A stretch of 64,000 bases of DNA. It comes from Buxus sempervirens. Its lineage: Eukaryota; Streptophyta; Magnoliopsida; Buxales; Buxaceae. The notes under the pieces were generated by a model. It was not told where the DNA came from and did not search any database. It saw nothing but the letters and a program-made list of their open reading frames with translations. The position numbers were made by a program, and so were the translations under genes. How positions within the stretch are numbered: position 1 is the first letter of the stretch; each line of letters starts with the position of its first letter. Positions 2,679 to 61,290 of the stretch are shown piece by piece. The stretch covers positions 14,874,858 through 14,938,857 of the forward strand of contig OX387190.1 in NCBI GenBank assembly GCA_947561395.2, written 5' to 3'.

Positions 2679-2783
2679 GCCCGTAAATGATTTACGGTCC
2701 AATGGTGTCCATATATGTATTATGGGCGCTGCGTGCCCGTATATAAAATTCGGGCGCACTTAGCCCGTAGATACAATATGGGC
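2679..2783. repeat. Family B dyad array, 4 units, 28-bp period (solo LTR)
   Basis: Units start at 2679, 2707, 2735 and 2763, exactly 28 bp apart. Each is a 21-bp inverted repeat of the form GCCCGTA, 7 bp, TACGGGC (degenerate). The array lies about 200 bp upstream of the LTR TATA box in the element's transcription direction. Confidence 0.9.
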
Positions 2784-16414: not shown

Positions 16415-16581
16415 GGCAAAGGCTAGGGTTAGGGTTTGCATGATGCTAGACACAAAATGATGTCTAGAGTCCACCAACCTAAACCCTAAGGCTATTTCCG
16501 AGATTTCCACTCCTTTAATGAAGGATATGATGGTAAAAAGTGAAAACTCTCGGAAAACCCTAATTTTGAGCGAAAACCTTG

Positions 16582-16721
16582 TATTTGACAACTCAGATCG
16601 GATACAAGAGCACATATATGTATCCGGCATATGTCGTTGGATACATTAATACTTGCTTGTATCCGACAACTTGTGTCGGATATAAAAAGGTCCTCTTGTA
16701 TCCGATGATTTGTGTTGGATA
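16582..16721. repeat. Family A dyad array, 4 units, 39-bp period (left LTR)
   Basis: Unit starts are 16582, 16621, 16660 and 16699, exactly 39 bp apart. Each unit is a 23-bp inverted repeat of the form TATCCGAC, 7 bp, GTCGGATA (degenerate). The array is about 170 bp upstream of the LTR TATA box in the element's direction. Confidence 0.93.
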
Positions 16722-16825: not shown

Positions 16826-16841
16826 ACTGCCCCTCTTTGCG
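16826..16841 (-). other. Polypurine tract of Tat A1
   Basis: Minus strand GCAAAGAGGGGCAGT directly precedes the LTR start TGTAGACACC. The same tract lies beside the LTR at 53582 and, with one extra G, at 58040. It fixes the element direction. Confidence 0.85.
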
Positions 16842-17223
16842 GGAATTGCAGAGCAACGAGCTGCAAAGATTAGACAAGCCCAAATATCGCTCTCTTGACC
16901 ATGATTTGCTTGGTTCAATTTTAATTTTGCAAAATAATTTTGGGTGAAGATTTACCAAAAAGCCCTAACTTTAAGGGGGCATTTTTTCAAGATGTCTTAA
17001 ATTCCACTAAGCTATCGTGGCTATGAAGTGGATTTTAAGCCCAAAATAAGATTTTTGAAAATTGATTTTTTCATCAAACCAAGTTAAAAATTGAATGAAT
17101 ATTTTCCTTTTGACCAACACATTTCCCCAAGTTGTCCCAAATTCCACTAAGCTCTCGTGGCTATGAAGTGGATTTTAAGCCCAAAATAGGTTTTTTGTGG
17201 AAATAATAGATTTTGTAGCACAC
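16842..17223 (-). other. 3' untranslated segment of Tat A1
   Basis: No gene. It contains two copies of a 45-bp phrase, AATTCCACTAAGCTNTCGTGG...GAAGTGGATTTTAAGCCC (about 16996-17045 and 17140-17185). The phrase also occurs twice at 53760-53805 and 53898-53940 in copy A2, and once in altered form in family B (58240-58275). Confidence 0.7.
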
Positions 17224-17334
17224 ATTTTTTTTTCTTTTTCTTCTTTTTTTCTCTTTTTTTTTCTTTTTCTCCTTTTTCTCTTTTTCTTTTCTTTTTCTCT
17301 TTTTTTTTTCTCTTTTTTTTCTGTTTTTCTTTTG
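17224..17334. repeat. Long polypyrimidine tract
   Basis: Almost pure T/C for about 110 bp (polypurine on the element's sense strand), ending at the dyad array. Copy A2 has the equivalent tract at 53987-54150. Lysine/arginine-rich open frames across it are composition artefacts. Confidence 0.9.
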
Positions 17335-17396
17335 TATCCGACGTAATTAGTCGGATAAGAAAGGCCTCAGTTATATCCGGCGTGATCTGCCGGATA
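17335..17396. repeat. Family A dyad array, 2 units (before PMD gene)
   Basis: Units start at 17335 and 17374, 39 bp apart, both strong dyads (TATCCGAC...GTCGGATA and TATCCGGC...GCCGGATA). A TATA-like sequence follows 8 bp later. Confidence 0.92.
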
Positions 17397-17404
17397 CAGT
17401 AGGT

Positions 17405-17411
17405 TATATAA
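17405..17411 (+). promoter_or_regulatory. Candidate TATA box of the antisense PMD gene
   Basis: TATATAA lies just downstream of the dyad array and upstream of a pyrimidine-rich leader with GCGTGCGACCGCGAC. The array and GCGACCGCGAC are conserved in copy A2 (54215-54245), where the TATA is weaker. Inference from position and motif. Confidence 0.5.
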
Positions 17412-18777
17412 GTCGCGTGCGACCGCGACTCTTCTCCTTCTTTTCTTCTTCTCCGATTGCAAACCTCGGACACATTTCTTCTTTTCTTCGCCGACTGTCA
17501 ACCTTCTTTTCTTCTCCGGCGACTTCCACTGCTTCTGGCGACTCCCATTGCTTCCGGCTAAAGATCATAACTTCGGCATTTTTTGGTGGTTGCTCATTCA
17601 CGATAGTGGCCAAGCCCTAGCTTGGTTTCCCCTTCTTCTAATTTTCGGTGATTGCTGCTCGTCGTTGGAGCGCTAACCTCCGGTGATTGCTAACGACCTG
17701 CTCTTCGCCACTTTGATTTCTCATTTGCAATTAGACGTTCGATTCTATACTGCTCGTCCACCAAACCAGGTCAGTGAGCAGATTTCAGATTGTTGTATTT
17801 GCAATAAAATTCCTGATTATTGACTATATGTTGGACGAATTGCTCATGGCATGATTTTCAAATTTTGCATTTCCAATATTACTGATGATAGAATTTTCCC
17901 AACTTAATGTCATGTTGTTTTTCTACTTTCTTGTTCTGCAATTTGATTTGCCTTGTGATTCCTTAGAACCGAATCTGCCATTGGCTTGATACCCTTGAAT
18001 TGACAACGTCCAGGAACTTTGGATTGCCTGTCTGTAGTCTTCATAGAATTGCTGATTGCATGCTTTTTGGATTGTATGTTTCTCATGCTCTGAATTGCTG
18101 ATGTCTTGCTGGGATTTTTCTCTACCATTTGCTTTGGCTTTCCACTCTGTCTTGCTAATCCCTGACCTGCAATTCCTTTGAGATTGATTGCCTTGACAGT
18201 ATCTGAGAACCTCGGATTGCCTGCCGGCAACATTTTCCACTGAATAGTTGATTTTTGGTTTAAATGCCTCTGATCACTGAATTTCCGGTGCTTCAGTACT
18301 ATGCAGGGATCTTTTTCTTTTTCTTTTTTTATTCTGCAATTTGCTTTGGCTTGCCAATTACACTTCAGTGTGTTTTTGATCAGTGTAGTGCTTCAATTGC
18401 CCGGGTTTTTCTTTGCCCTATGGATTCCCTGTCGATTCTCCAATTTTTGCAAACACTTGATGTTCTTAACACATTTTGCTGATACTTGTATTTTGATACC
18501 ACATGTTGTCATCAAATGCCTTCCCATTAACTTTGATGTCTGACTTGGGTATTCTTCGAGATGCAATTCCCGCTTTGACCTAGGACCTTTTATGCAATGT
18601 TGAACTTTTTCGCTTCCTGCTTTCCCGAGTGCACCTTGTACTCCCTCCTTTTTTTCATCGGGTAATCCTGAAAACAATTTAAGAAAGATTAAGCTTTGTA
18701 AATATATTCAGGTTTAGATAATATTGTCAAACAATAAAACTTAAGTAGAAACATAAAACATCTCCTGTTTCCTGTAG
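17412..18777 (+). other. Leader and probable 5' intron of the antisense PMD gene
   Basis: A pyrimidine-rich leader with CTTCTCCGGCGACT-type phrases (17430-17770) is followed by long T-rich sequence ending TTTCCTGTAG directly before the ATG at 18778. All three cassette copies have a CTTGTAG/CCGTAG-type acceptor immediately before the start codon. This sequence is poorly alignable between A1 and A2, unlike the exon. Confidence 0.5.
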
Positions 18778-21550
18778 ATGGCTAGGAGTCGTTCCTGTGT
18801 TCGAGAGGAGGCTGACCCTGATGATCAGCCCTTTTCGTCCCAGGCTAGGATCGAGGCGAGTTCTAATGCTACCCTGTCGGAGCCGCTGGATGATTCCAGA
18901 GAGAGTTCTGGAGAGGGCTCTGCTGAGGTAGGCCTTCAAATTCTTATTTCCTTTTCTTGCTTTCCGCGAAACTGACTTTGCTTATTCATTTCTGCTTTTA
19001 GCCTGTTGTTGCTCCTGCTCGAGGTCTCGGTAGAGGCCGAGAGAGAGGCGGAGGCAGAGTTGGAGAGAGGGGTCGAGGCCGAGCCAGAGAGAGGGGCCGA
19101 GGCTGGGCCGGAGCTTTAGGCCAGGAGGGTGTTGCTGCAGCTTTCCGCATAGGGATCTCCGCGAAGTTGAGAGCGTCTGTTCATGATATAGAGCTTCTTA
19201 GTGGTTTGGATAGCCACCCCTCCATGTGCATCCGTGCTGATGTTCCACTCCCGTATCCTCCTTCCCATCTACGGGGCAGCTGGGGGAGGTTTAGTGAGTT
19301 GGTTTTGACTCTTTCTCCGGCACTCAGGCGCGAGTTCGGTCGGTGCCACATTGACTACTTTCTTCATATCCCTTCATTTCGAGCTGACCGCTCCCTTATT
19401 TTTGCCATGATGGAGCGATAGTTTCCGGAGACGCAGTCCTTTTATCTGCCGGACATGGAGCTTGGGATCCGTCCCTCCGATTTTGTCATGATCACCGACA
19501 TTCCTCTGGTGGGGCGGACTATTGTGTTGGATCGACCTTCAGCAGCGGACATCGACCTTCTCTTGGGATACCAGGACTTACTTGACGCTGCTTGGGACAG
19601 GCGGAGCAGTCGTATCTCCATCAGCTGGCTACGAGAGAGCCTTACCCGACACTTTGAGGGGAGACATGCGACCATTATCCGGGAGGACACGACCAGTGTT
19701 AGTCCTCTTTTTTTGGATGCTTTGAGAGATCTCCACCAGACCCGGCAGTTAGCGTGGGGTCGGATTATATATGGGACCATCCTGGCCGGGTTGTGCCGAG
19801 TAGTTTGAGGCCTAGCCGCTCCGAGGGGTGATGGAGTTAGTTGCCGGTTCTTCTGGCAGATCCTGCAAGTACTGAATTCATCTGCATTGTCTTATTCCCT
19901 TTATTTTCTCTATCCTTGACTTATTTCTCTTTTGCCAGGTATTCATGTATACTTACATGACTTACTTCCGTCTGTCCCCCGTGCCTGGTGTTGCGGAGTT
20001 CCCTGTTGCCTTACGGTGGTCTGCCCAGGTCCAAGATGCAGATAGGAGTCAGCCCCGTACTGCTCGGGTTCACTTGGATCGTGCCCGACGATCTGATGTA
20101 AAATTCTTCGCCCCTTTCTTCTTTTTGTACCTTATTTGTATCTGGCACCCTTATTCTTCTTTGCAGCTCCTATTAGCACGCTTCGACGATGTGGATATCG
20201 GGGTCGCTCGTGAGATGATAGTACAGGATGCTTTTGATCGAGACCTCCGGCGCCAGCCCTACCAGTGCTTCCTTGGGAGGCTTGGTAGGGTAATGTATCT
20301 AGGAGAGCGCCTGTACTATCAGTACATAGGCGTACCTCGCATTCCAGTTCCTCCTCCTCCTGTGGGTCCCGACACTCTCCTGCCCGGTTTTGATATTAAT
20401 CAGTTTGATCAGTATTAGGATGCTTAGGGGCTTACAGTAGCTGGGGATTACAACAAGTGGATCAGGAGGGTGTCCATCGGGTGCCTGAAGGATCGACCCA
20501 CTCGTGCCGGGGTGACAGAGATTGGCGAGATTTACATCCGGGTCCATGATGACACCGTAAGTTTTATGATCTTCATTTTTCATCTTATTTCCCTCAATTT
20601 AGTATTTGTGACTCTAATCCCATTCTCATTGGCGGGTAGAGGAGTTGAATGCTCTTCGGGACCGGTTCCAGAGTCAGTGGACCACGGTCGATGATTTGAT
20701 TGCTGAGCATGATGCGGTTGTGGCCCAGCGAGATGCCTGGATTAGGGAGCTGGAGGCTTTGGTTGCTGAGCTTCGGGCTAGACAGGTATATAGTTTTCCA
20801 TTTCTTCATCTCTTTCATTTCCATGTTTCTCTGTTGTTCTGATATGACTGTTTGACTTTTGCAGGATCCAGTTCCAGATCATGATGTCTCAATTAGGCCA
20901 GACCCTCCGGTTCCTGGTCCATCTCCTATTCGGGCTGTTGTTCCTGATCCTGTTGCATCTCCTATGCCTACTGCTGTAGTTGACCCTGTCAGTTTCCCAT
21001 CTCCTGTGAGGGCTCCTGATCCTAAGGACATCCCGGTCGCCGATCCGGTTGTATCTACTATTTCTGCTACTCCTGTGGATCCCACTAGCACCTCATCTCC
21101 TGTGGTGGCTCCTGATCCCGTCCCTGAGGTCCTTGGTAAGTTTTCTTTAGTCTTACCTCCTTGGTTCATTTTGATGCTTCAATTTTTGACTTTATTTCCA
21201 TTGACCCAGATATTTCTGTTCCTGGTCCTTCTTCTGCTGTTGCCGAGCCTTCTGGAGCTGCAGGAGTTGAGACTACTACGGCCGAGGACCCGGTTGAGCC
21301 TGAGGTGGCTATCCTGTTAGTTGAGCTTGTTCCTGCTATGCCTGAGGCTTCCTCCTCAGATTCTGTTCCTGACCTGCCTCCTGACATATCGGACTACTGT
21401 CTTGAGTATCAGCTTGAGTCCTTCGTGGGTCGGAGACCACGCTACATGGCCGAGCGCCTTTTGGCATATTATAGGCGCCGACCATCTCGAGGTAGAGGCC
21501 GCAGAGGAGCACGGGGTAGAGGACGCAGGGGTGATCCTGCACAGGAGTAG
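18778..21550 (+). pseudogene. Antisense PMD-like gene of Tat A1 (fossil)
   Basis: Coding segments are separated by GT...AG-bounded gaps. In order they are: an acidic N-terminal exon (18778-18929, MARSRSCVREEADPDDQ), an RG-rich stretch (19002-19125), and a plant-mobile-domain-like core (about 19167-19808: HIPSFRADRSL, FPETQSFYLPDMELGI, PSDFVMITDIPLVG, plus WLRESLTRHFEG). Then come a region at 19945-20560 (GRLGRVMYLGERLYYQYIG, RAGVTEIG), a short coiled coil (20640-20785), a Pro/Val/Asp-rich region, and an RG-rich tail (RGRGRRGARGRGRRG) ending at 21548-21550. PMD proteins (MAIN/MAIL1 family) act in transposon silencing in plants, and PMD domains also occur in transposable elements. Function here is inferred. 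The frame is no longer intact. Confidence 0.7.
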
Positions 21551-21689
21551 GAGATTAGGATTTACATTGTTTACATTATCATTGTATAAACGAGACTTGC
21601 ATATATATGAAAAACTTTTTTATTCATTCTCTCTTGTGCTGCTCTCTTTTCCTTCTTATTTTTATGCAATTATAACTTGTACACAGGTA

Positions 21690-21754
21690 AAACAGGTAAA
21701 AAATTCGGATTTTTCTCCATTTTTTCTTTTTTTCTTTTTTTGCTTTTTCCTTTG
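21690..21754. repeat. Pyrimidine-rich tract before the second array
   Basis: T/C-rich sequence ending directly at the dyad array, the same arrangement as at 17224-17335. Confidence 0.7.
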
Positions 21755-21894
21755 TATCTGACATATCAGATCGGATACATTAAAACCTTTTTGTATCCAA
21801 CGTAATACGTCGGATATACTAACATTTTAATGTATCCGACATTTTTCGTCGGATAAGAATAGGACCCTTTGTATTTGACCTGATATGTCGGATA
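21755..21894. repeat. Family A dyad array, 4 units (before DUF7745-like gene)
   Basis: Units start at 21755, 21794, 21833 and 21872, exactly 39 bp apart, each TATCCGAC-7-GTCGGATA or close to it. The array ends 130 bp before the ATG of the next antisense gene. Confidence 0.93.
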
Positions 21895-22024
21895 CATTAA
21901 AACATGCTAAAAAAGCAACGGGACTCGGGATTTGAGTCATTTTAACGAGTTTTTGAGTTTAGAAAACCCCCTTTTCGCCTATTTCCTCCTCCTATTGATT
22001 CTTAACACGCTCCAATCATCTCCA

Positions 22025-23694
22025 ATGGCTTCTGGATCATCTTCTGCCCCACCATTGTCTGTCCACACAGCCTCCCCTGCAAAACAACCTTTTAGAGCAA
22101 AACCCCCTAATCTCACTAGGTACAGCCCTGTAGATTCATTTTACACTAGGTGGGTCAACTCCATGACCCTTGATGAAGAGATTAGATGGGATTTTATTCA
22201 TCTAGGCCACACTTTGCTCATCCCTTCCATCCCGTTCAAGTGGGAAATTATTGAAGCCATGATTGGGCACTGGGTTCCTGATTTGAACCTTTTTCGTTTT
22301 GGAGACAATGAGATGACTCCAACCATTGAAGAGGTTGAAACCATCCTAGGCTTGAGGTTTGCAGAGAAGGTAGTGAACCCATCCCCTAGGCCTAGCTACA
22401 AGAAAGAGGCTTCTACTTTTTTGGGCATAGGGAAGGACTTAGGGGACTTTGACACCCTTTTGATTTTATCCAAGTCTTTTTTGACTAAGAAGCTCTTGAG
22501 GGGGGAGAACAAGGAAGCCAGGTTCAATGCCCTAACCCTGGTAGTGGTCAATCAACTACTTTTCCCCAGAGATGATGATGAAGTCGACCTGGCCCTTATC
22601 CCGGTTATATGCCAAGTTAGGGAGTGTGAGAGATTGGCCCCTATGATTTTGGTAGAGATGTACCAGGCTTTGACTGATTGTTATTACAGGAAGAAGAAGC
22701 GCTTCCTGTCATGTGCCCCCATCCTGCAGGTAAAATTCACCTTTTTTTTTCTTTTTGCTTTTTTCTTTACAATATATTGAAATATCTTTACTCTTCTGCA
22801 GCTTTGGTTACTTGACCACTTGAGTCAAATTGAGGAGATCAATCGACACTTCTTTCCAAGCTTGAAGGTTCCAATCTTGATGAGCACCGGGGGTGCCCTG
22901 ATATCCAAGGAGGCAGACAGGGTTGGTTTGCTTTTTTGGCTACTCTTCAGGACGATCAGGTGAGGTGGCCTAGCACTTATCAACCCAATGCAGAGACAGT
23001 GATCAGTTTAAGAGACAGGAACTTTTTGGTTCTGACTGGCTTGAGTCATGCTGTGCTTTACCTCCCCTTGCGTGTTCTTTGGCAGTTCAGAGCGACCCAG
23101 GGGATTATAATCCCAAGTGGATACGAGGATCATCTTGGGCCACTTTCACCAACCACCGGGAAGCTGAATGCTTGGTTGATGAGGGAGTGGTCCTATGTTT
23201 GTTTCATGCAGAGCCCAGTCTTCTCAGAAACCCATGTGAAGGACTAACTCTTTTGGATCAAGGAGCATATTCAAAGTCAAGCCCCAGTACTCGAGGATCC
23301 TCCTGCAGTTTTGGTTCCCACTTATGAGGACCTCCTGGAATCTGAGAGAGCCTCTCACAAGCGACTTCAGCAGATATGGGTACGAGAGGCCTGGGAGCTT
23401 AGGATACGAGGCCTTGATCTGGAGAGGCAACTTGAAGAGCAGGTATCCCACCGTCTTGCTATGGAGGAGAAACTGGAGGAGTAGAGGCAGGCTCACTACT
23501 TTGAGGTCCGGATGATACGGCAGAAGTACCAGGATGCTTTAGCCAGCCTTAGAGGCATGAGGATCAGGCAGGCCCTTTCAGATGAGGTCATATCCTTTTT
23601 GAGCGATCCGGATGCAGAGGGGGCTTCTGGAGTTATTGCAGCTCAGGCAGCTCGGATTCGGGAGCTTGAGGAGCGGCTAAGGGATAGAGAGTAG
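22025..23694 (+). pseudogene. Antisense DUF7745-like gene of Tat A1 (fossil)
   Basis: Exon 1 (22025 to about 22729) starts MASGSSSAPPLSVHTA and contains RWVNSMTLDEEIRWD, FKWEIIEAMIGHWVP, PTIEEVETILGLRF and FNALTLVVVNQLLFPR. A GT...AG gap (about 22730-22800) lies at the same place as in family B. The second part holds WLLDHLSQIEEI-type sequence, RDRNFLVLTGLSHAVLYLP and LRVLWQFRATQGII, typical of plant DUF7745 proteins. It then has a C-terminal coiled coil with RIRELEERLRDRE, ending near 23694. Molecular function of DUF7745 is unknown to me. About 85% identical by eye to the family B protein over exon 1. The frame is broken. Confidence 0.72.
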
Positions 23695-24674
23695 CCTTCT
23701 TTCCTGCACATTTTTTTCTTTTTTTTTTCTTCATACCTTTGTACGAAAGTAAACTCCAATAGTGGAAAGACAAAGGATTTAATTCAAAAATAAATTTTTT
23801 ATGTTATTGGCCTCAGAATGCTCAGATGCTTGTAAAAACAAAGGTTTTATGAAAAGTATTTGATTTCTCATCACTAGCCAAAGTATAGTTTTTTCTTTTT
23901 ATTATTATTTTTTATTTTTTTGAAAATTGGTCCATATACTTAATCACCCATAATTAAAGGAATTAAAACCAGGTCAAATAATAAAAAGGGTAATCCAAAC
24001 AATAACAAGGGATCAAATCTGTCTATCTTAGGACCTTCACAGTCATCCCCAAATGCTAAAACTGACTCCATTGTTCTCAATCTGCTTAGTCTCAATATTC
24101 GTGCTGATTTTACTTTAAGCTTAGATCTCCATGATCAACTCAACCTTTGATTTTTTTCTTTCTTTATTTTATTTTATTTTATTTTTTTTTCTTGCCAATA
24201 TTGCCCCTAGCGCCAGTTGCGGTTTTCACTAGGACCGGCTTCTGCATTCCATCATCACCAATCTCACTCTGAAATTTGAATGAACATACTAAAATCACTG
24301 ATGGCTTAAAAATAGGATGAAACAAAGGCTAGACTTGGTTTATGAAAGAAAAGGTATTAGAGGCTCAAAATTTTTCTAAATGTGAAAATAGGTCAATCGG
24401 ACTTACAGTCATGATGAATTTGCCTCATTTCCCCAAAATGTATCCTTTTCTTCCTTTTTTGCCGTTGGCTTTCATTTGCCAATATTCTTTGCTTTTTTGC
24501 TTTTCTTTTTTTTTTTCTTTTTGCCCCAATTTGTTTTGCCCCAGTATAAGACTGTAAGTCCAGTTTAGGTTTATCAAAGAAATGAACCGGCTCGACTTGG
24601 CTAGACTAGGGATTAAAATTTTTGAGGGAAATAAAGAAAAAAATGGCCTCAGATCATTTCCTAGTAATATTCAT
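23695..24674 (-). other. Spacer between DUF7745-like gene and integrase
   Basis: Non-coding, T-rich, and clearly alignable with 63571-64000 of family B (TAAACTCCAATAGTGGAAAG, GGCCTCAGAATGCTCAGATG, TGATTTCTCATCACT). It is thus an inherited part of the Tat element and the convergent 3' end of two opposing transcription units. Confidence 0.75.
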
Positions 24675-25871
24675 TCAAGGAAAATACCTTTTTACTGCAT
24701 CAGAGTTAATTGGCTTAGGAAAATCTGTCCCATCCATTTCCGTCAAGATTAGTGCACCCCCTGACAGGACCTTCTTGACAACATAAGGCCCTTCCCAATT
24801 TGGCTTGAACTTACCACGAGGATCTTCCAAAAATTGTAAAATTTTCTTTAGTACCAAGTTTCCTTCTTGGAAAGTTCTGGGCTTCACCTTCTTATTGTAG
24901 GCCCGGGACATTCTCCTCTGGTACAATTGGCTATGACAAAGCGCCTTCAAACACTTTTCTTCTATCAGGTTAAGTTGATCATGTCTTGACTGTATCCATT
25001 CAGCTTCTTCCAATTCAGCTTCCATGAGCACTCTAAGTGATGGGATTTCTACTTCCACTGGCAAAACTACTTCCATCCCATAGATTAGGGAATATGGGGT
25101 TGCCCCAGTTGAAGTCCGGATTGAGGTTCTGTAGGTATGTAGAGCAAGTGGTAGCGTTTCGTGCCAATCCTTGTAACTTACTACCATTTTCTGAATGATT
25201 TTTTTTATCTTTTTGTTTGCTGCTTCTACTGTCCCATTATGGTGGGTGATCTGAAACTGCTCACATAACTTCTTCATATCCTTGTTCTTAATATTTGAAG
25301 CATTGTCTGATACTATGGCATTTGGCAGTCCATAGCGATAAATGATATTGTGCTTCAAAAACTTAATGACATGGTTGCTTGTGATGTTCGCATATGAGGC
25401 CGCTTCTACCCACTTAGTGAAATAATTGATTGCTACCAGGATAAATCTGTGCCCGTTCGATGCCTTTGGGGAAATCATGCCAATGACGTCTATGCCCCAC
25501 ATGGAGAAGGGCCATGGTGATGTCATGTTGTGAAGCTTGCTTGGGGGTGCATGCTTATTATCTGCATATATCTGATATTGATGATATCTCCTGACATGTA
25601 TACAGCAATCATGCTCCATTGTCAACCAATAATATCCCAATCTCAGGATCTTCTTTGCAAGCATGTGTTCGTTCATATGGGGTCCACAAACTCCTTTATG
25701 TACAGTCTCAATCAATCTTTCTGACTCAGCCATAGCAACACACCTGAGCAGAATGTCATTATGTGATCTCCTGTACAAATGTCCACCACTTAGTAGGAAT
25801 TGACCGGCTAATCTCTGTATTGTCTTTTTCTCAGTAGAATTGGCATTTTCTGGCAAACTTCGATGATTCAA
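24675..25871 (-). pseudogene. Tat A1 integrase (fossil)
   Basis: About 398 residues. The N-terminal zinc-binding region (HMLAKKILRLGYYW ... C..C-like) is followed by a DDE core with WGIDVIGMISPKASNGHRFI, GLPNAIVSDNASN and the glutamate in HHNGTVEAANKKIKKII. A C-terminal GPYVVKKVLSGGALIL segment is typical of Tat integrases. It would join element DNA to the host chromosome. Its 3' end converges on the antisense cassette. The copy looks nearly full length but belongs to a broken element. Confidence 0.9.
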
Positions 25872-25892
25872 GAAATTTTTGATATCTTGAAA

Positions 25893-26315
25893 CTATGGTG
25901 TTTCCTCTTCTAGTGCTCCTTCTAGAACAAGACAATAAGCCGGTTCATCTTCGACCTCGATTTCCAGTGGCTTGATGTCTACCCTTTCTGGCATGCTGAC
26001 CATGGAAGCCAATGTTGCTAGAGCATCTGCAAATTGATTTTTGGCTCTTGGCATATAGTTGAAGGAAATTCGAGTAAAATTTGTGTTTATTTCTTCCAAA
26101 TACTGGTGATAGGGGATTAATTTGTGGTCTTTGGTCTTCCATTCACCAGTTGTTTGGAAGATGATAAGACTCGAATCTCCGTATACGTCAAGTTCCTCCA
26201 CTTCATGATCTATGGCGGCTTGCAACTCAATTATGCATGCTTCATATTCGGCGATATTATTGGTGCACTGGAATCTTAGCTTCACTGCGATCGGGATGTG
26301 TGAACCATCTGGTTT
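25893..26315 (-). pseudogene. Tat A1 second RNase H, downstream part (fossil)
   Basis: PDGSHIPIAVKLRF, NNIAEYEACIIELQAAI and VYGDSSLIIFQTTGEW are the middle of the archaeal-like RNase H that Tat/Ogre elements carry in addition to the gypsy RNase H. ADALATLASM follows. The other part lies at 35550-35733, separated by the 26321-35544 insertion. Confidence 0.88.
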
Positions 26316-26329
26316 GACCATGTAAAACC

Positions 26330-27120
26330 TCGGATTTTTTTAATAAAGTAAATTAAATAAGCCTAAATATTGAGAAGTTAAGATTCAATTTAGGTATTTG
26401 AAGAATAATATTATGATCCAAAGAGATATTAGTAACTAAATAAATAAACAATAATTTTGAGTAATTAGGAAATTAAATATAAACGATTTGAGAAGATAGG
26501 TATTAATCCAAGTACATTATATGGTTAAGATTGATGTGAAGAATAAAGAGGAGGATTTTTGGAAAAAGATTCAAAGGTTAAGTATGAAATTCAAAGGAAA
26601 GGGTATTTTAGTCATTTCTTAATTAGCCAAATTAAGATATTAAGTAAATAAATAATTATTAGACTTGAAATATTTAACTAGACTTAATTTGGGTTAGGTT
26701 TGGATTTAAATAGCAAATTATTGCTTAAAAGTAGGAAAAAGGGTATATTGGTGATTATGGTTGATAAGGAGCCTTAAGTTTGAGGTTAAGAGGCAGCTTT
26801 AGGGTGTTTTAGTAATATTTTAAAATAAGAAATTTAATTAGCACGAAAATAAATTAAAATAAATCCTTCTCTTATATAAGATACTTAAAAGAGGAATTAG
26901 AATGAGGGTTAAGATGGCGAGGTTTCCAATTAAGAGTGGGAATCCTATTTAGAAAGTCTTCTAAACCTAGTGGGACTTCTAAATAAAAGAGCTTATAAAA
27001 GGGGAGATCTAGGAAAGGTTTAGGGTTTTTAGCAAGTCAAAAATAAGGAGGAAAGAGAGGAAAATTCGTGCTTGGGAGAAAAATAAAGGAAAGAAGAGAA
27101 GAGAGAAAAGAGAGGGAAGA
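26330..27120 (+). other. AT-rich first part of the solo LTR
   Basis: Non-coding, strongly AT-rich (ATTAAATAAATAATT-type), then a purine-rich run near 27045-27130 (GGAAAGAGAGGAAAA, GAAGAGAGAAAAGAGAGG). GAGCTTATAAAAGGG near 26990 contains a TATA-like motif on the plus strand, a plausible U3 promoter. Confidence 0.5.
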
Positions 27121-35778: not shown

Positions 35779-37254
35779 CTACTTTGCCGTTCTGCCAGTT
35801 GGTGTTGGTTTCTCAAACAAATACTTCAGGGGGTCCATCCGGGATATCAATAATGTGGAGTGACTAAGGAAGTAATGCCTTAGCCTCTGAGTTGCCCACA
35901 CTAGAGCACAACAAGTCTTTTCCAACGGTGAGTACTTGGCTTCATATTCTGTGAATTTTTTACTCAGATAGTAAATTGCCCTTTCTTTTCTACCAGTCTC
36001 ATCATGTTGCCCCAAAACACATCCCATCGATGTTTCCAACCCTGACAAGTATAGAATCAGTGGTCTTCCTGGAGTTGGTGGCACTAGCACAGGTGGATTT
36101 AGTAAATACGTCTTTATGGTATCAAAAGCCTGTTGGCAATCCTCATTCCAGACCGTCGGGTTATCTTTCCTTAGAAGCTTGAAAATCGGTTCACAGATAG
36201 CAGTGAGCTGTGCTATGAACCGGCTTATGTACTGAATCCTTCCAAGAAAACCCTTGACCTCCTTCTCTATTCTGGGTGATGGCATTTCAATTATGGCCTT
36301 GGCTTTAGCTGGGTCAATTTCAATTCCTCTTCTGCTCACTATAAATCCCAGCAACTTCCTTGATGTAGCCCCAAAGACGCATTTAGCTGGGTTAAGCCGT
36401 AGACTGTACTTCATGAGTCGATCAAACACCTTCTTCAGATTGATCAAGTGGTCTTCTTCTTTGCATGATTTGGCAATCATATCGTCCACGTAGATCTCCA
36501 TCTCCTTATGGATCATGTCATGGAATAGTGCTGTCATGGCCCGCTGGTAGGTTGCCCCGGCATTCTTAAGCCCAAACGGCATGACTGTGTAGTGGAAGGT
36601 GCCCCAAGGTGTGATGAACGCTGTTTTCTCTTGATCTTCCTTAGCCATCTTGATCTGATTGTATCCTGAGAAACCATCCATGAACAAAAATAGGCTATGC
36701 ACCGCAGTGTTGTCCACCAAGATGTCTATGTGTGGAAGCGGAAAATCATCCTTTGGGCTTGCCTTATTCAGATCTCTGTAGTCCACACACATTCTGATTT
36801 TCCCGTCCTTCTTTGGTACCGGCACTATGTTTGCGAGCCACTCGGGGTACGTGGAGACTGCCAAAAATCCTTCTTGAAATTGTTTGACCACTTCGTCCTT
36901 GACCTTCAAAGTCCATTCAGGTTTCAATCTTCTCAGCTTCTGCTTAATTGGCTTAACCCCTGGCAAAATTGGCAACTTGTGCACCACCATGTCAGTTTCC
37001 AATCCCGGCATGTCCCGATACGACCAAGCGAACACATTCTTATAGTCTGCCAAGAACCGTGTCATTTCATTTTGTTGTACCTCAGATAGGCATGCCCCAA
37101 TCTTAACTATTTTTGGGTTATCTTCGGTCCCAAGATTTATTGAGATGGTCTCCTCAATATTAGGTTGGACCCCCTTTTCACGACATTCCAATTGATATTC
37201 AATTTCTTTTGGAACGTCTTCTTCTTCGACCTCGGTCTCTTCTTCGATCACCAT
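35779..37254 (-). pseudogene. Tat A1 reverse transcriptase and gypsy RNase H (fossil)
   Basis: 491 residues. An acidic start and an FAWSYRDMPGLETDMVVHKL linker lead into the reverse transcriptase: KQFQEGFLAVSTYPEWLANI, VPKKDGKIRMCVDYRDLNKA, FMDGFSGYNQI, TFHYTVMPFGLKNAGATYQR and IYVDDMIAKS near residue 255. The gypsy RNase H follows from about residue 390 (RPLILYLSGLE, AIYYLSKKFTEYEAKYSPLE, TCCALVWATQRLRHYF). The sequence is Tat/Ogre-like throughout. It would copy element RNA into DNA. Confidence 0.93.
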
Positions 37255-38024
37255 GAGGTCAAAGTCGAGCTTAAGGTCGAAGTCATATTCAACCTAGTCT
37301 AATTCGGTTTGCTTATATGGTTTATAAGTGGTTTGGACCTTTTTGAAAAAATTAAATTTCCTAGAAAAAATAGAAAAATCTTTTTGGGTTTTTTGTGAAC
37401 CTCCTGCAAAAACTCTCCCTAAAGACGAAGGCTCATTAAAACCTTCAGGGAAATGGCAATCCACTAATGGAGTTTTTTTTTGGAAACCGCGTCAGTTTGC
37501 CAAACAAACGCTGCTTCAAAGGTAAGGGTAGTTTCCTCCCAATTATTTAAAAAAAGTTTTTCAGGAGTGGGGGAAATTGTGCAAGCCTGCTCCTCAAGCT
37601 CTGAATCCGATGCCATCATCACCAGATGAGTTGTACTGCCCTTTTCTGCTGTGGGGCCCAGTCCAGATACGACATCATTTGGAATTTTTACCGCTGCCCA
37701 ATCAATGAACGGTAGTTGCTTAGCAACTTTTGTCTTATCACCCTCAGTCATGGCGAAGAAAGCCCCAACATCTTCGGAGAAGTCCGTCTGCTGCTTTGGC
37801 TGTGGCCCAGGCCCGCCCACAGTTTCAAGCATAGGAGATAGGTTATAGGGTTGCAGGGTCGGAACAGAAGGCTTTTGGAATGCATTGATGTTGCGGTAGG
37901 GAGGTTTGGATTGGTCCATAGGAGGAGACAGTTGGATTGTATATAAGGGTTTAGGAAAATTTTCCTTTAAATGAGGGAAACTTCATTTGCTTCTTTTCTC
38001 TCCTTCTTCATGCTTCATCGTTCT
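37255..38024 (-). other. Protease-to-RT linker of Tat A1
   Basis: It contains an open segment of about 150 codons at 37464-37919 (minus strand, YRNINAFQKPSVPTLQPYNL, acidic) of the kind found between protease and reverse transcriptase in Tat elements. Ogre elements are known to remove an intron in this part of pol. No splice sites could be assigned with confidence. Confidence 0.5.
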
Positions 38025-39104
38025 TCATCCTCTTGGTTTGAACCCCAGTCCTACTTTAGGAACCAGCTTCTTCACCTTGATTGGCTCTACCATCTCCTGC
38101 AAATTATTTCCCAGGCCTTTCCCGGGGTGAAAGTGGTATTTTTCCATCACTCTTTTCACCATGCTCTCAGCAGTAGTCCCTTTCTTTTCTTTTTTCTCAC
38201 ACCCTTCAGGTATGAAATTAACTGTTTCAAACTGAAACGAGTGGAACGCAATCTTGTAGACAGATAAATCCACATTTATAAAGGGTACGTTAGGTGACAC
38301 AATGGGAGGTACCAAATTCTCAGCTAAGACAGTTATCACCCTTTGTCCTCTTATGTACTTCACCCTTTGGTGAAGTGTGGATGGTATTGCCCTAGCCAAA
38401 TGTATCCACGGCTTCCCTAGGAGCAAATTGAAAGTTGCGGGGATATCCATCACTTCAAATGTGATGTTGAAGATATTCGGTCCAATTGTGACCGGAAGTT
38501 CAATCTCCCCTAAGGAGTGTGTCTTAGAGCTATCGAAAGCCCTCACAATCCTCTCATTCTGCTTGATCTTCGACTGATCCAAACCAAGTTTGACAAAAGT
38601 GATTAATGGGCAGACATTTAATGCCGACCCATTTTCAATTAAAACCCGTGCCACCATACTGCCCTTACAAAGCACTGTGATGTGCAAATGGTCAACATGG
38701 TAACACCCACCTGGGCTTATCTCACCTTTGGAGAAACTTATCACATTGTGTGACAAGATTTGACCAACCATTTTGCCTAGTTGGTCCAGATCAATAGTCT
38801 GGGATACATGTGCACTCTGTAGCACCCTTAACAATGCGTCCTTGTGCTTTTCCGAATTCAGCAAAAGGCCCAGTATTGAAATCTGGGTCGGGACCTTATT
38901 TAGTTGATCCACAAGATTAAATCCACTCTTTTTTATTATTTTTATGAGGTCTGATGCCTCATTTTCTGCACCCTGGGGGGTGTCTTCTCCTACTTTTGTT
39001 TTTCCTTTCAATTTTCTTTTTTCTTCTGTTTCTTTTCTCTCTCTCTCCACCTTTGTTTCTTTTTCTTTTTCTGCTCCTTCCACATATTTCCCTGACCTCG
39101 TCAT
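38025..39104 (-). pseudogene. Tat A1 protease with G-patch (fossil)
   Basis: A Lys/Glu-rich start is followed by LIKIIKKSGFNLVDQLNKVP and a retropepsin-like domain (GSMVARVLIENGSALNVCPL, ITFEVMDIPATFNLLLGKPW). Near the C-terminus is a G-patch-like segment (MEKYHFHPGKGLGNN, VKKLVPKVGLGFKP). A G-patch next to the protease is characteristic of Tat/Ogre elements. The protease would cut the polyprotein. Confidence 0.85.
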
Positions 39105-39762
39105 GAGGTTTACCTCTTCCTAGTTCTGGTTCCTGACCACCGGAACCGTAGCCGTGACCCCCTCGCTGTAATTCCATGGTACAGCTGCCTCAGAATAGGC
39201 CAGTTTAGGGACATTAACCACCAACGGCTGGAGTGTGGACCGGGATGTATGAGCCGGTTTAGGGATATGATAGGATTAAGGAACGTTTACAACCAAGGTT
39301 TGGAGCTTGGCTCTAGATGTGGCTGATGGAACAGAAGAGGAGATGGATGCAGTGTTGGGGTCAAGGTTGATGACCAAAGGGGTTTTTGATGTCTGGGATG
39401 GAGAACAAGTGGGTGGACTGCAATTGAAGACCAATGGAGGCCTTGCAATGTTTATCTAGGCAATAAGGGAGGAGACCCGGTTCAGGGAGGAGCTAATATC
39501 CTCAGCAGCATGATCATTTTTTCTGGAGATAACATTCTTGGAAGAAATGGACCTTGACCGAGGTCCCCACGGGAGCTATAAGTTGATATGGGTCGAAGGC
39601 CCTTCTCATGGCGGATATGGCAGTGATGGAGTTGGACGGGCCTGCCCCATTGCGGTAAGGCAGAGGGTTTTGCTCGATATCATTTCCCAACGGGGCAGGT
39701 GCAGTAGTATTAAAGACCAGGGCCTTCTGATCCAACAGATCCTGGACTGCATGCTTCAGAAC
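39105..39762 (-). other. Gag C-terminal linker of Tat A1
   Basis: Low-similarity, Gly/Pro-rich sequence between gag and protease. It includes short open segments, such as NDIEQNPLPYRNGAGP near 39650, that are typical of the gag-protease junction in Tat elements. No independent gene is supported. Confidence 0.5.
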
Positions 39763-41211
39763 CTAGCAAGAGTCTGTAGAGTGCCCTGGTGTACCCATGT
39801 GGAAGTTACAAGTGACTGCCGGATCAAAATTCCTCCCCTTCAAGGCATTTGGGTTGGGCTCTTTCAGGGTCACATACTCCCCTTTCAGCAGGGATGGCAA
39901 TAGTTGGGAAAGAGACACGGGCAGAGGTGTAAAAACTCTGCTCCTTCTTGCTGCTATCCAGGCCTCCCTCTCTTCCTTAGTAAAAGCCCTCCTCTGATTT
40001 GCAGGCACGGAGGGGGAGAAATTGACATTAAGTGGGGTCTGGTATGACTGTTGGGCCTGTTGGGGTGCAGAAATATTGACATGAAGCGGTTTCTTGGAGG
40101 GAGGAGCCTGTACCAGGTTTACTTCTTCTTCTTTTTTGGCCCCGTTCTTTTTAAACCCAGTCCCCTTCTTCTGTGCCAGGAAAGCGGAGGAATCAGATTG
40201 CCCGGTCAAAGTAGAGTAGTCAATAAGTTTTCCCGACCTGACCCCTTCCTCGATCCTGTCAGCCGCCTGTACCAGGGCTGTAAAATTGGTGGTGATCTGA
40301 CCCACTAGATGGTTATAGAAGGGCTGCCCCAGGGTGCTTACAAAGGTTGAGATCATTTCGGGCTCCAATATAGGCGGCCTGACCTGGGAGGTGGCCTCTC
40401 TCCACCTCTTAGCATACTGCCGTACAGATTCCTCTTTTCCCTTACTCATCCTCATCATGTTGTACCGGTCTGGCACGATCTCAGAGTTGAACTTGTACTG
40501 GTCTAGAAAAGCGTCGATCAGGTCCTTCCACCTCCTGATCCTTCCATGGTCCACCGTGGCAAACCACCTAAGAGCCGATCCTGTCAAACTCCTCTGGAAG
40601 AGTTAGATCAGTATGCCGTCATCCCGGACAAACTGGCACAAAGCCCCGCAGTATACTTTCAAGTGGCTCATTGGGCAGCCCGTGCCATCGTATTTATCAA
40701 AGTCCGGGCACTTGAACTTGGACAGTAGACATGCATCCGGGTATATACATAGGTCGTCAAAGGTGGTACCTCCATAGCTGTTTCCCCCCTTTAACTCCTT
40801 AAGTTCTTCATGAATCCTCTCTATCTTATGTAGGAGTTTCTTTTCCATCTCCTCCCTAGCTTTTTCTTTTTCCATTTCCTTCTCATACTCCACAGTGTTT
40901 TCCCTGATCAGAATAGGTTCAAGGACTGGCTCAGAAATGGGTTCAAGTATGGGTTGAGCTGGAGGTGGAATGTACGCTTGAGGTGGTGGTTTTTGATGAG
41001 AAGTAGAGGCTTGGTTTTGGGCCTGGGCCTGAGCCGCCAGTAAGTCACCCAGCATCTTGGCCAGATCGGCCACTTGCTCTTGCAGCTGAGCGAAGTCCTG
41101 AGCGGGTACAGTGGCTTGAGCTTGATTCTCTTCAGTATTCATTGCTCGAGCTTTGGATCTGGTTACGGGAGCAATGATTGCAAGTAAGTGTACCTGGGGA
41201 AGAAAAAACAA
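39763..41211 (-). pseudogene. Tat A1 gag (fossil)
   Basis: N-terminal Gln/Ala-rich coiled region (QLQEQVADLAKMLGDLLAAQ), a Pro-rich stretch, and the conserved CPDFDKYDGTGCPMSHLKVY block. The Retrotrans_gag core follows (LRWFATVDHGRIRRWKDLID, FLDQYKFNSEIVPDR, EESVRQYAKRWREATSQVRP, MISTFVSTLGQPFYNHLVG). A C-terminal CNFHMGTPGHSTDSC segment matches the knuckle-like C..H..C of Tat gag. Breaks are few here. Confidence 0.9.
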
Positions 41212-41338
41212 AGAAACAAGTCAGCTCCCATTTAATCCTAGTCACACATATAAATGTTGATAAGTGAGTTAGGTGAACACAAGTCCGGATTTATTTGTTT
41301 TTTTTTTCTATATTTTTCCATTTTTTTGTTTTTTTGTT

Positions 41339-41955: not shown

Positions 41956-42095
41956 TATCCGACATGACATGTCGGCTAAGGCTATGCCTTATTGTATCCG
42001 ATACAAATGATCGGATACATGCATAAGCTTTTGTAACCGATGAAATATGTCGGATAAGAAGGAAACTCTGTTTAACCGACCTGAGTTGTCGGTTA
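41956..42095. repeat. Family A dyad array, 4 units (upstream of gag)
   Basis: Units start at 41956, 41995, 42034 and 42073, exactly 39 bp apart. The last two have TAACCGA in place of TATCCGA on one arm; the final unit changes both arms, which keeps the dyad (TAACCGAC...GTCGGTTA). Confidence 0.93.
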
Positions 42096-53338: not shown

Positions 53339-53478
53339 TATCCAACATATCAGGTCAGATACAAGAGCACATATATGTATCCGACATATGTCGTCGGATA
53401 CATTAACCTTTGCTTATATCTGACAACTTCTGTCGGATATGAAAGAATATGCTTGTATTCGACCTGGGTTGTCGGATA
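53339..53478. repeat. Family A dyad array, 4 units (right LTR)
   Basis: Units start at 53339, 53378, 53417 and 53456, exactly 39 bp apart; the unit at 53378 is a perfect TATCCGAC-7-GTCGGATA dyad. Confidence 0.94.
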
Positions 53479-54150: not shown

Positions 54151-54212
54151 TATCCGACATAATTGGTCGGATAAGAAGATTCTCATTTGTATCCGACCTG
54201 ATTCGTCGGATA
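54151..54212. repeat. Family A dyad array, 2 units (A2, before PMD gene)
   Basis: Units at 54151 and 54190, 39 bp apart: TATCCGACATAATTGGTCGG-type and TATCCGACCTGATTCGTCGG-type dyads. Confidence 0.93.
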
Positions 54213-57632: not shown

Positions 57633-57833
57633 GGCAAACCCAGGGGTAAGGTTGGTCCAAGGTTTGGCCAGATAGAGTTTCAGTTTGAGTTAAACACAAG
57701 ATCATGCCAATCCATTATCCACAAAGATATTTCGCACGAATAAAATATATAATTCGCTCATTTAAAGGGATATTGGACTAAAGATAAGGCTCAGAAATCG
57801 AGAGAAGAATAAAACTCACACGAGTCTAATGTG

Positions 57834-57938
57834 CCCGTAAATGATTTACGGTCCAGTGATGCCCCTATATTCATTACGGGCTCTGCGTGCCCGTATACTC
57901 AGTCCGGACACGGTCAGCCCGTAGATTCAATACGGGCA
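57834..57938. repeat. Family B dyad array, 4 units (LTR)
   Basis: Units start at 57834, 57862, 57890 and 57918, exactly 28 bp apart. The last is a perfect GCCCGTA-7-TACGGGC dyad. Confidence 0.93.
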
Positions 57939-58389: not shown

Positions 58390-58491
58390 GCCCGTATTGA
58401 TATTACGGACAGGTCATGCCCGTAATTTTGATACGGGCGATCGGGACCGTGTTACCTTTATGGGCGCCTATGACCGTATTGCTTTTACGGA
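58390..58491. repeat. Family B dyad array, 4 units (before PMD-related gene)
   Basis: Units start at 58390, 58418, 58445 and 58472 (28, 27 and 27 bp apart). Motif GCCCGTA...TACGGGC with some GACCGTA arms. Confidence 0.88.
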
Positions 58492-59833
58492 TTTTGGCTT
58501 TCTTCATAACCGCAGCTGCGAACCCTTCTCTCATTTCTGCTCGTATTTCTTCTTTGATTTCTCTGTGACCTCAAACCCTATTACGATTTTTCCTTTTCTC
58601 CATTGACCGCACTTGTCTTCTCCGGCAACCTTCTCATTCTCCGGCGACCATTGTTATCTCCGGCGACTTCGTTTCTCAGCGATTCTCACATTCTCCGGCG
58701 ACGACTTACTCATTCGGCCTTGTCGTTTCTTGTCGGAATAGCAGTGTCTTCGACGACTATCAGCTTCTCTTTGCGACAGTGACCTTGCCGAGGCTGTTTC
58801 CTTTTGCTCCAAGCATCACTCAAACATCTCCTGTGAGTGAGTTCGAAGCTTCCATTTATATTTTGCAAACTTCTAATTCGACCCACACAGGTATGCCGAA
58901 CAGTAGCTTTCACTTTAACTATTCGACTGAGAATCATTGTTCAAAATCCATGATTGAATGCACACAATTATATGGGCATGATTTTTGATTTGTTCTGCTC
59001 AATTTACAGAGTTCTCCAACACCTTGTCTGATCATATGAAATTGGATGACTTGGGTCTCATGAACCAATCTCTTATGCTGTTAATTCCTGTTTGAATATG
59101 ATTACAAATTTCTGAATGAATGTACTAATACTTGAATGGTCAAACTCCCTCAAATGTTGGCTTGTTCATCATTATGGGCTGCCAATTTTCCTTGCCAATG
59201 ACATCTATGAGAATGTAATGCTTCTGGATTCATGTTTGACCCATGCTCAATTTTCTCAGTTATTGAACTGCTGTGTTGCCTTGCTGATCTGGAGTAATCA
59301 TGCTCGGCATGTTTTGATACTTTCTTAATCCTGATTTTCTGCCAATGCATATTCTCATAGCAAACTTTTGTATGTTCAATTCCTGCTTCCAGACTGTTGC
59401 TTTAGGTCTTCTTGGAACTTTGCTTTGATCATGGGATGCTAGGTGATTGTCCACCTATTGATTTTGACTTGCTTGGCTTTCCACTGTAGGGGCTGCTAGG
59501 CCAATGATTTTTTACTCCCAACTAATCTTCCATTGAATAAGCCTAAACTTGATGAGTACTTCTGTTACCATAATCATAACACAAATAGGCTTGAATTTCC
59601 GTCCTGAAACCAAAATGCAAAAGAGAAAATTAGAATCAATCCTTAAGACATTCATACGTATTTTTTTTTCATTTTATAGACAAGTAATTATCACAATAAA
59701 ATTTCTCCAAACAGAAAATTAAACTCCTTTTCTTCCATTTCCCTTTTTCTGCACATTAATTAATCTTGATTAATAATGAAAATCAAGCAATTTTAACAAG
59801 AATAATTAAACATCTCCTTTATTTGAACCGTAG
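58492..59833 (+). other. Leader and probable intron before the family B PMD-related gene
   Basis: CTTCTCCGGCRACC-type phrases (58615-58700), as in family A leaders, then long AT-rich sequence ending CCGTAG before an ATG at 59834. Confidence 0.5.
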
Positions 59834-61290
59834 ATGGCCCGCCTTTGATCAGCTTCCAGGGATCCTGCAAATGAGCCTTCCTCCTCTTTTTTCCTTCCTA
59901 AATCATATGTCTAATATTCTTCTTTCTGTTTTTCAACTGTTCGTCCCCAGGATGGAGGACATTCATGAGGTGCTGGCCCTGCATGCGGCTAGAGATGATG
60001 CCTTTGCCCCTGACCAGAGACGTCAGAGATATCAGTTCTTTATTGGTCAGATGGGCAGCATCTGGTATTGCGGCGAGCGCTTCTTCTATCAGCACGTCGG
60101 AGAGCCTCGGATTCTTGCCATCCCTCCAGATACTACCCCTTCCTTTCCTCCTATGCCTGTTGATCCTGCCCAGTTCCTAGATTGGATTGAGGCAGAGACT
60201 TTATTGGAGGAGGGTGACTATGATGCCTGGTTCAGGCGATCTTCAGTTGGGTGTCTTATGCCACCCATGCCTATCCGTGGTGGAGTCACGGAGATTGGAG
60301 GGGTAGTGATTAGGGCCTATGATACGACGGTATACCTTCTCCCATTTCATCTTCCATTCTTATACTTTATTTGAACTTGGAATTTTCTAACACCTTCTCT
60401 TCTATTTCAGGAGGTTCAGTTGGTAGAGATCCGATCCCGGTATGCTGATATAGAGCGCCAGCGAGATGCTGCTATTGCCGAGCGGGACGCCCTCTATATT
60501 ACTATTTCCTATCTTCGAGGACAGCTTGCTAGGGCGCAGGGCCAGGCGGGCCCTTCTGGTGCACAGGATCAGGCGGGTCCATCTAATACCCAGGTTAATA
60601 CTTTCACCTCTTTCCATTTATGCTTTTATATCTGCTTATCCTGTTTTGACCAAAATTTTCTTTCTTATTTTCAGGATGACACAGCCGGCCCTTCTTCACC
60701 TACTTCACCTGTGCCTATGCATCTTCGTGGTGAGGTATTTTCTGTGGCACGGGTGGAGTTTGTGACTTCTCCTAGATCGGTAGAGACACCTGCAGCAGAG
60801 CCTGCGGTCGAGGCTGAGGTTGATCCTACTATTGTGGATGTGCCAGAGTCTGCCCCAGCACCTAAGACTGCTCCTGATGCTTCTGTAGATATGGATATGG
60901 AGCCGGCCAGGGATGTCGCTGCGGTGGAGCCTACTGTGGAAGCTGGGGTCATAGAGGAGGCTTCGGTTGATCCTGTGGAGCCTGAGGTAGAGACTGATGT
61001 TCCTGGGACGTCCGTTCCTGCTGATCTTGCTGCTGCCGATTCTGAGTCTGTTTACACAGATTCTGATACCGAGTCTACGGGATATGTAGATACTTCGGGG
61101 TACGTTCCTCCTGATCATCCCACTGCTGGCCTTGTGCCTTTATATATGTGGCATGTTATTCAGTTTGTTTTGAGCAGGATGACCCGTAGTACAGCCCGTA
61201 ACATCGTACGACATGTTTTTGAGCCCCGGCGATCTTCAGGCCGTGGTTGAGGTAGAGGACGTGGCCATGGCCGTAGGGGTGGACCTGTAT
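59834..61290 (+). pseudogene. Antisense PMD-related gene of family B (fossil)
   Basis: The recognisable parts correspond to the C-terminal half of the family A gene. They are RQRYQFFIGQMGSIWYCGER, FFYQHVGEPRI and RGGVTEIGGVVIRAYDT (59950-60330), a coiled coil (60415-60592, ADIERQRDAAIAERDAL), an acidic Pro/Val/Glu-rich region (60675-61090), and an RG-rich tail ending near 61290. The PMD core seen in family A is not recognisable here. GT...AG gaps separate the segments at the same places as in A1. The frame is broken. Confidence 0.65.

Follow-up and report, generated by a model that had tools for sequence, protein, structure and literature searches.

A 64,000-nucleotide stretch of the Buxus sempervirens genome (contig OX387190.1, positions 14,874,858 to 14,938,857 of the forward strand; hereafter, the window) raises the question of what reads the arrays of short, two-fold symmetric sites (dyads) that stand beside predicted promoters of its Tat-type retrotransposons. 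The window consists of nested transposable elements in plant DNA. Two of the Tat families represented there carry, antisense to gag-pol, a gene resembling plant mobile domain (PMD) proteins and a gene with a DUF7745 domain. To our knowledge, plant retrotransposons often carry PMD genes, which have no established role there. A prior reading of the DNA from its letters alone (the sequence-only reading) had proposed that the products of this two-gene cassette might bind the arrays so as to protect or activate their own family. On balance, we lean slightly towards a narrower version, in which a DUF7745 dimer would read the dyads of its family and thereby activate, or release from silencing, the promoters of its own element. 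The unit looks like DUF7745 plus arrays, with PMD optional.

Dyad arrays in the window

Elements A and B (family 1) carry the dyad TATCCGAC-N7-GTCGGATA repeated every 39 bp exactly, and elements C and D (family 2) carry GCCCGTA-N7-TACGGGC at a 28-bp period (27 bp twice). The difference between the periods, 11 bp, would be about one helix turn. Arrays are found in the U3 region of the long terminal repeat (LTR) and upstream of each of the two antisense genes, PMD and DUF7745 (Table 1). In all four elements, the LTR array stops 101-104 bp short of the LTR end; that of element A lies 166 bp from the sense TATA box (16406-16415, minus strand). Promoter calls throughout are TATA-box predictions.

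Allowing up to three mismatches, all matches in the window fell inside arrays, 20/20 for family 1 and 17/17 for family 2, as compared with means of 0.04 and 0.38 matches, respectively, in 100 shuffles of the window. Of the dyads found by a motif-free scan, 65 had at least one relative no more than 200 bp away (5-11 in five shuffles) and 39 had two or more (0-1 in five shuffles). Most of the 65 belong to the arrays; the others are dispersed or fall within tandem repeats at about 5.1 and 41.3-41.5 kb. With 37/37 matches in arrays, the claim that family-specific arrays stand beside each predicted promoter was borne out, and it extends to copies elsewhere in the host genome.

The element genes were identified using profiles. 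In element A, Retrotrans_gag, RVT_1, rve and RVT_3 all scored above the profile cut-off. A second (archaeal-type) RNase H is a marker of Tat elements (PMC6317226), and element A, having gag, reverse transcriptase (RT), integrase and this second RNase H, is a Tat-type Ty3/gypsy retrotransposon. Exon 1 of the DUF7745 gene matched the DUF7745 profile (PF24924, cut-off 26) with 57.2 bits in A and 71.8 bits in C. The PMD profile (PF10536, cut-off 34.9) was matched by both antisense genes of element A: DUF7745 exon 1 scored 39.5 bits (38.0 in C), and the PMD-like gene, its stops read as X, scored 28.8 bits (E 8.9e-7), below the cut-off. The antisense placement of the two genes was confirmed in A and C, as were the RG-rich ends of the PMD-like gene (both ends in A, the one retained in C). 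All cassettes of the window are broken by stops, shifts or a lost 5' half (elements A and C): the PMD-like gene of A has two in-frame stops, and exon 2 of its DUF7745 gene has one frame shift and one stop. Searches for relatives of DUF7745 exon 1 outside this genome gave no match in the protein collection (E 1e-5), viral contigs, genome contigs or plasmids. Five viral contigs each contain a single dyad.

Family-1 copies across the host genome

The host assembly, a single genome of 676.5 Mb in 247 contigs, was searched with DUF7745 exon 1 of families 1 and 2, which gave at least 150 scored matches per family. Many family-2 DUF7745 copies have tied scores among the matches listed, which suggests a recent burst. 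Twenty family-1 copies, hand-picked among the matches listed, were fetched. All 20 have a DUF7745-promoter array of at least three dyads at 39 bp (38 bp once each in L031 and L033). The LTR array was present in 13 fetched slices and the PMD-promoter array in 12; the remaining slices are disrupted or have no recognisable LTR end.

The TATA box of the DUF7745 promoter starts at 5882-5884 in 20/20 copies and lies 13 bp past the fourth dyad in the 19 copies in which the fourth dyad passes; element A of the window has no clear TATA at this promoter. Overall, the antisense-gene arrays adjoin TATA at a distance of 8-13 bp. In family-1 copies whose inner dinucleotide is AC or GC (see below), the LTR array stops 103-104 bp short of the LTR end; in L030-L033, it stops 91 bp short. 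After the PMD-promoter TATA, most family-1 copies also have a conserved GTCGCGCGCGACCGCGAC-like stretch (17413-17435 in the window; L016-L033).

Among 13 AC copies, conservation was 0.894 in the dyad arms, 0.836 in the spacer, 0.746 in the linker, 0.748 in the inner dinucleotide and 0.859 in the 100 bp downstream. These data bear on whether the arrays are functionless tandem repeats of the kind common in Tat elements. Such repeats lie near the 3' LTR in about half of Retand clusters (PMC11963269). Here, however, the separate loci of one element have the dyad but not the linkers in common, the arms are better conserved than the linkers, and the spacer and the distances to TATA are fixed, so that this explanation is barely credible. 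Separately, RNA hairpins were set aside as the role of the arrays, since the arrays of the antisense promoters precede TATA.

Concerted change of the dyads

The family-1 copies differ in the inner dinucleotide of the dyad. In L030-L033, a single subclade, this is mostly GT..AC, replacing AC..GT, at the LTR, PMD and DUF7745 sites; in L029, all three sites have a mixture of GC and GT. Among the 15 elements in which two or more sites could be compared, the A-or-G class agreed between sites in 14; the fifteenth, element A of the window, has a tie at its PMD site. A joint change of distant sites within one element is expected if a single factor reads them.

The two arms of a dyad also changed together. 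Specifically, both arms agreed in 109 of 173 dyads, as compared with 54.7 when arms were shuffled among all dyads (reached in 0/5,000 shuffles), 98.4 when they were shuffled within elements (p 0.014), and 95.5 when they were shuffled within class, site and index (0/5,000). Among dyads picked at up to two mismatches, 68 of the 74 changes at C/G arm positions were C>T or G>A, and 11 changes were found among 1,038 A/T arm positions. The excess of C>T and G>A would fit cytosine methylation in silenced copies.

Further families share a CCG-N11-CGG core

A DUF7745 profile search of the host genome returned 118 places, of which 18 were fetched and combined with two family-2 copies. Upstream of these 20 genes, the dyads were of the family-2 type in five, the family-1 GC type in one, a third type in five (family 3, AACCGCA-N7-TGCGGTT) and a fourth type in one (family 4, G[AT]CCGCA-N7-TGCGG[AT]C); eight genes had none. 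The dyads of L040 and L042, two each, were detected only by a looser scan. Family 4 has the same arrangement as the window elements, with two dyads at the PMD promoter and, in the LTR, an array of four at 28 bp that stops 103 bp short of the LTR end. Arrays at three promoters were found in window element A, window element C and family 4. No array was found in the 5.3 kb upstream of the family-3 gene L054, nor was an LTR belonging to family 3 itself; the family-3 dyad is present in an LTR inserted in L027.

The dyads of five families have a CCG-N11-CGG core in common, and the flanks vary. We surveyed spacers of 0-20 in 312,509 fetched bases, mostly selected for these elements. The spacer was 7 in 101/102 half-site pairs of TATCCGAC, 66/66 of TATCCGGT, 44/54 of GCCCGTA and 21/26 of AACCGCA. 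Tentatively, PMD/DUF7745 could be a superfamily of DNA-reading domains: each Tat family would write its own password around this core at its promoters and encode the DUF7745 protein that reads it, so that coexisting families would evade silencing separately. On that view, the superfamily of the host silencing factors MAIN and MAIL1 would be one of promoter readers encoded by retrotransposons.

The half-sites also raise the question of whether the dyads are read by transcription factors of the host, with the genes of the elements as unrelated passengers. The family-1 half-sites contain CCGAC, which we take to be the DRE/CRT core bound by DREB factors. Similarly, palindromes of Sirevirus LTRs match database sites of stress factors (PMC2829016). 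However, GCCCGTA, AACCGCA and TATCCGGT lack CCGAC and have the same core, spacer and place, and a single host factor would not track family-wide symmetric changes. We consider host factors improbable as readers.

DUF7745, with or without PMD, as a probable partner of the arrays

For the eight DUF7745 genes that lack a local array, identity to that of element A is 31-39%. One of them, L037 (family 5), lies in the sense strand and is followed by a gag-like open reading frame (ORF) in the same direction, as judged by eye. The two LTRs of this element are identical across 2,434 bp, and the element is therefore young. Each LTR contains five GCCCGTA-type dyads, the last 14 bp upstream of TATA, and there is no array at the gene; the array of family 5 thus stands at the TATA box of the LTR that would drive DUF7745. 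With two PMD queries, tblastn detected no PMD from the integrase to the 3' LTR, about 4 kb of pol being outside the search; in the same region, tblastn with DUF7745 gave only an 11-residue match (E 0.75). L058 with L051 is a second family-5 copy, with an LTR array identical in type. Over 208 codons, three family-5 DUF7745 copies differ by 14-17 synonymous and 6-8 nonsynonymous changes. In the upstream slices of the other sense-type genes, L060-L064, the element that owns the dyads is ambiguous: L063 has GCCCGTA dyads in a seemingly inverted family-5 LTR, L064 has family-1 GT-type dyads, L062 has two family-3-like dyads, L061 has a single hairpin and L060 has none.

The sequence-only reading had named arrays in a Tat family lacking the cassette as evidence against itself. 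Family 5 is such a case in that its LTR array occurs without an antisense cassette, but it does carry a sense DUF7745 gene. As the array stands at the LTR TATA predicted to drive that gene, the arrays seem to be partnered by DUF7745 rather than by the two-gene cassette. The DUF7745 half of the original pairing is thus retained, and PMD looks dispensable, given family 5 and the exchanged PMDs described next.

In L018, L020 and L027, the PMD is about 71% identical to other family-1 PMDs, and the AC dyads and AC-type DUF7745 are kept. All three arrays were seen only in L020 among these copies, and the argument from swapped PMDs thus rests mainly on one copy. These PMDs (at 2900-3600 in L018) form a second subtype inside family-1 elements. 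The PMD tail of L018 is still 84% identical to that of A at the DNA level, and the diverged domain beside this tail looks like recombination inside the gene.

These data were used to evaluate PMD, alone or with DUF7745, as the reader of the dyads. PMD is under purifying selection (see below), has RG-rich ends and has an array at its promoter. Against this stand the AC dyads of L018, L020 and L027, kept despite a strongly diverged PMD, and the family-5 arrays, which occur without a PMD in the stretch searched. Overall, a PMD reader is highly doubtful.

Both genes are under purifying selection. For DUF7745 exon 1, the mean ratio of nonsynonymous to synonymous substitution rates (dN/dS) was 0.149 within AC copies (120 pairs), 0.073 within GT copies (6) and 0.092 between them (64). 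Means against element C were omitted, as some pairs were saturated; A versus C gave a dN of 0.116 and a dS of 2.0, close to saturation. For the PMD domain, the means were 0.185 within AC (45 pairs), 0.059 within GT (6), 0.098 between them (40) and 0.230 among the three swapped PMDs. In calculating these, L029 was excluded from AC and GT, the swapped PMDs formed a group of their own and pairs saturated in dS were removed, which left 19/30 AC-swapped and 11/12 GT-swapped pairs; L015, L022 and L024 had no PMD exon 2 match. Neutral evolution of the cassette in recent copies, the other outcome held to count against the original proposal, does not agree with these values of 0.06-0.23 for both genes.

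Finally, the dyads were compared with the DUF7745 phylogeny. On a tree of 42 rows, the dyad labels, assigned by hand from array scans, require 6 changes, which is the minimum; 0/200 shuffles were as low. Family-5 rows were labelled 'none' for the gene-proximal region, and labelling them by their LTR dyad would give them the label of family 2 and add at least one expected change. Ten exon 1 residues separate the AC from the GT proteins, and the stretch 53-69 contains five of these (p 0.012, assuming independent residue changes). These residues are candidate base contacts.

Proposed role and competing explanations

The elements present evenly spaced, two-fold symmetric, family-specific sites upstream of predicted Tat promoters. 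In the mechanism that we favour, the DUF7745 protein would bind the dyads of its own family, probably as a dimer. Once bound, it would activate the promoters of its own element, that of DUF7745 included, or keep them unsilenced. PMD might serve as an optional partner.

The main rival is the opposite sign, and host factors come next. DUF7745 could be an element-encoded repressor that acts on the dyads to limit the element's own expression and copy number. The anatomy of the sites is compatible with either sign, and repression agrees with their presence at all promoters, DUF7745's own included, 8-13 bp from the antisense-gene TATA. However, the sites lie upstream of TATA and do not cover it or the start, in families 1 and 2 some 155-200 bp separate the sense LTR arrays from TATA, and families would presumably benefit more from escaping silencing. 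Repression is unlikely on these grounds.

Several results weigh against the favoured mechanism. The family-1 and family-2 sense LTR arrays do not adjoin TATA. Arm symmetry was not significant within the window alone (p 0.07 and 0.75). Position 7 showed no excess of arm agreement within elements (154 versus 153.2, p 0.47), and none when shuffled within class (p 0.23); the excess seen within groups comes from position 8. Family 5 shares the family-2 dyad, yet its DUF7745 is just 37-38% identical to that of A, which weakens a strict one-to-one code between dyad and protein. That dyad type follows the DUF7745 tree is also expected from linked descent of whole elements. The PMD-free and swapped-PMD arguments both rest on few copies. 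A PDB sequence search found no relative of DUF7745, and AlphaFold with a two-sequence input gave a mean pLDDT of 36.9 and no usable DUF7745 structure.

Related systems

The closest parallel is that of the VANC proteins of VANDAL (Mutator-like) DNA transposons, which bind tandem motifs particular to each family and remove DNA methylation (PMC5735166, PMC10398659). In Arabidopsis VANDALs, as here, element-specific short tandem motifs lie in non-coding DNA, differ among related families and adjoin a conserved gene. In contrast to the Buxus case, binding and demethylation have been shown experimentally for a DNA transposon, and the portions of those reports available to us do not describe the motifs as dyads. 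The Buxus system concerns an LTR retrotransposon with gag-pol, a DUF7745/PMD protein and fixed-spacer dyads, and is known from sequence alone.

Multiple palindromic boxes with a CG-rich core also occur upstream of TATA in Sirevirus LTRs, and in some elements upstream of env (PMC2829016). Sireviruses are Ty1/copia elements with a CGG-CCG core, whereas those described here are Ty3/gypsy with CCG-N11-CGG; the reader of the boxes is unknown, and the accessible part of that report proposes none encoded by the element. Retand elements combine antisense genes, in their case Transposase_28, with family-specific tandem arrays (PMC11963269). The protein domain differs from ours, and dyads, promoters or a link between repeat and protein are not described in the sections available. 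PMD proteins are encoded by other Tat-lineage elements: they occur in 57% of Ogre elements, as eORFs (PMC6317226), and the PMD-A clades are Gypsy-encoded (PMC5418596). As far as the available excerpts go, neither account describes cis targets. Further related literature comprises PMC7264820 and PMC9289625. In the literature searched, mainly outside subscription journals, we found no DNA target for retrotransposon PMD or DUF7745 proteins and no link to dyads.

The dyads provide a concrete, family-by-family prediction of the DUF7745 binding target. If the prediction is true, LTR retrotransposons would possess sequence-specific self-recognition parallel to that of VANC in DNA transposons, and each family could control its own copies via a private promoter tag. 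The AC to GT transition would then be a natural change of specificity, narrowed to the ten exon 1 residues.

Organization of the window

The coordinates of the elements, genes and arrays are summarized in Table 1. The inventory of the sequence-only reading stood as to arrays and genes; corrections to it concern the fourth array before gag, B as a 3' fragment, D as a solo LTR, the broken state of the cassettes and the match of both antisense genes to the PMD profile. The 5' LTR junctions of elements A and C, where an Ogre-type primer binding site (tRNA-Arg) would be expected, lie outside the window.

Table 1. Elements, genes and dyad arrays of the window (positions in window coordinates; spacing is from dyad to dyad)
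Feature	Position	Strand	Description
Element A	3' LTR ends 16825	-	Tat-type Ty3/gypsy; integrase and second RNase H, RT, gag
A integrase and second RNase H	24675..26339	-	Element's sense strand
A RT and gag region	35779..41220	-	
A antisense PMD-like gene	18778..21550	+	Several exons; RG-rich N and C ends
A antisense DUF7745 gene	22025..23694	+	Exon 1 (22025-22729) open
A LTR U3 array	16582..16721		4 dyads, 39 bp; 104 bp short of LTR end 16825
A PMD-promoter array	17335..17396		2 dyads, 39 bp; TATATAAG 8 bp on (17405-17412)
A DUF7745-promoter array	21755..21894		4 dyads, 39 bp
A fourth array	41956..42095		4 dyads, 39 bp; about 0.8 kb before gag; no clear TATA seen
Element B	LTR to 53581		3' fragment of element A's family, interrupted by element C
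B LTR U3 array	53339..53478		4 dyads, 39 bp; 103 bp short of LTR end 53581
B PMD-promoter array	54151..54212		2 dyads, 39 bp
Element C	LTR ends 58039		Extends past window edge; PMD-like and DUF7745 genes
C PMD-like gene	59834..61300	+	5' half gone, RG-rich end retained
C antisense DUF7745 gene	61760..63573	+	Broken: early shift and stop
C LTR U3 array	57833..57937		4 dyads, 28 bp; 102 bp short of LTR end 58039
C PMD-promoter array	58390..58492		4 dyads, spacing 28, 27, 27 bp
C DUF7745-promoter array	61505..61637		5 dyads, 28 bp; TATATAAA 22 bp on (61660)
Solo LTR D	1328-2884		Element C's family; 5-bp target duplication ACCGT
D LTR array	2679..2783		4 dyads of GCCCGTA type, 28 bp

Element A is split between RNase H and RT by a LINE (27405-33314) with endonuclease/RT-like ORFs on the plus strand. 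Its leader contains 77-bp tandem repeats (41328-41661) between the fourth dyad array and gag, and its protease region contains a G-patch domain (38028-39119; 23.4 bits, cut-off 22). Long pyrimidine-rich tracts adjoin the PMD-promoter arrays of A and B (17225-17333 and 53987-54146), and another lies within the DUF7745 intron of element C (62473-62646). Solo LTR D has a duplicated 154-bp stretch inside (2021-2328).

Two further elements are without a dyad array. The first, at 9314-14423, is Copia-like, with terminal repeats of about 320 bp that are 94% identical. The second, at 42600-50668, is a Ty3/gypsy element on the minus strand that has inserted upstream of A's gag and matches a chromodomain weakly.

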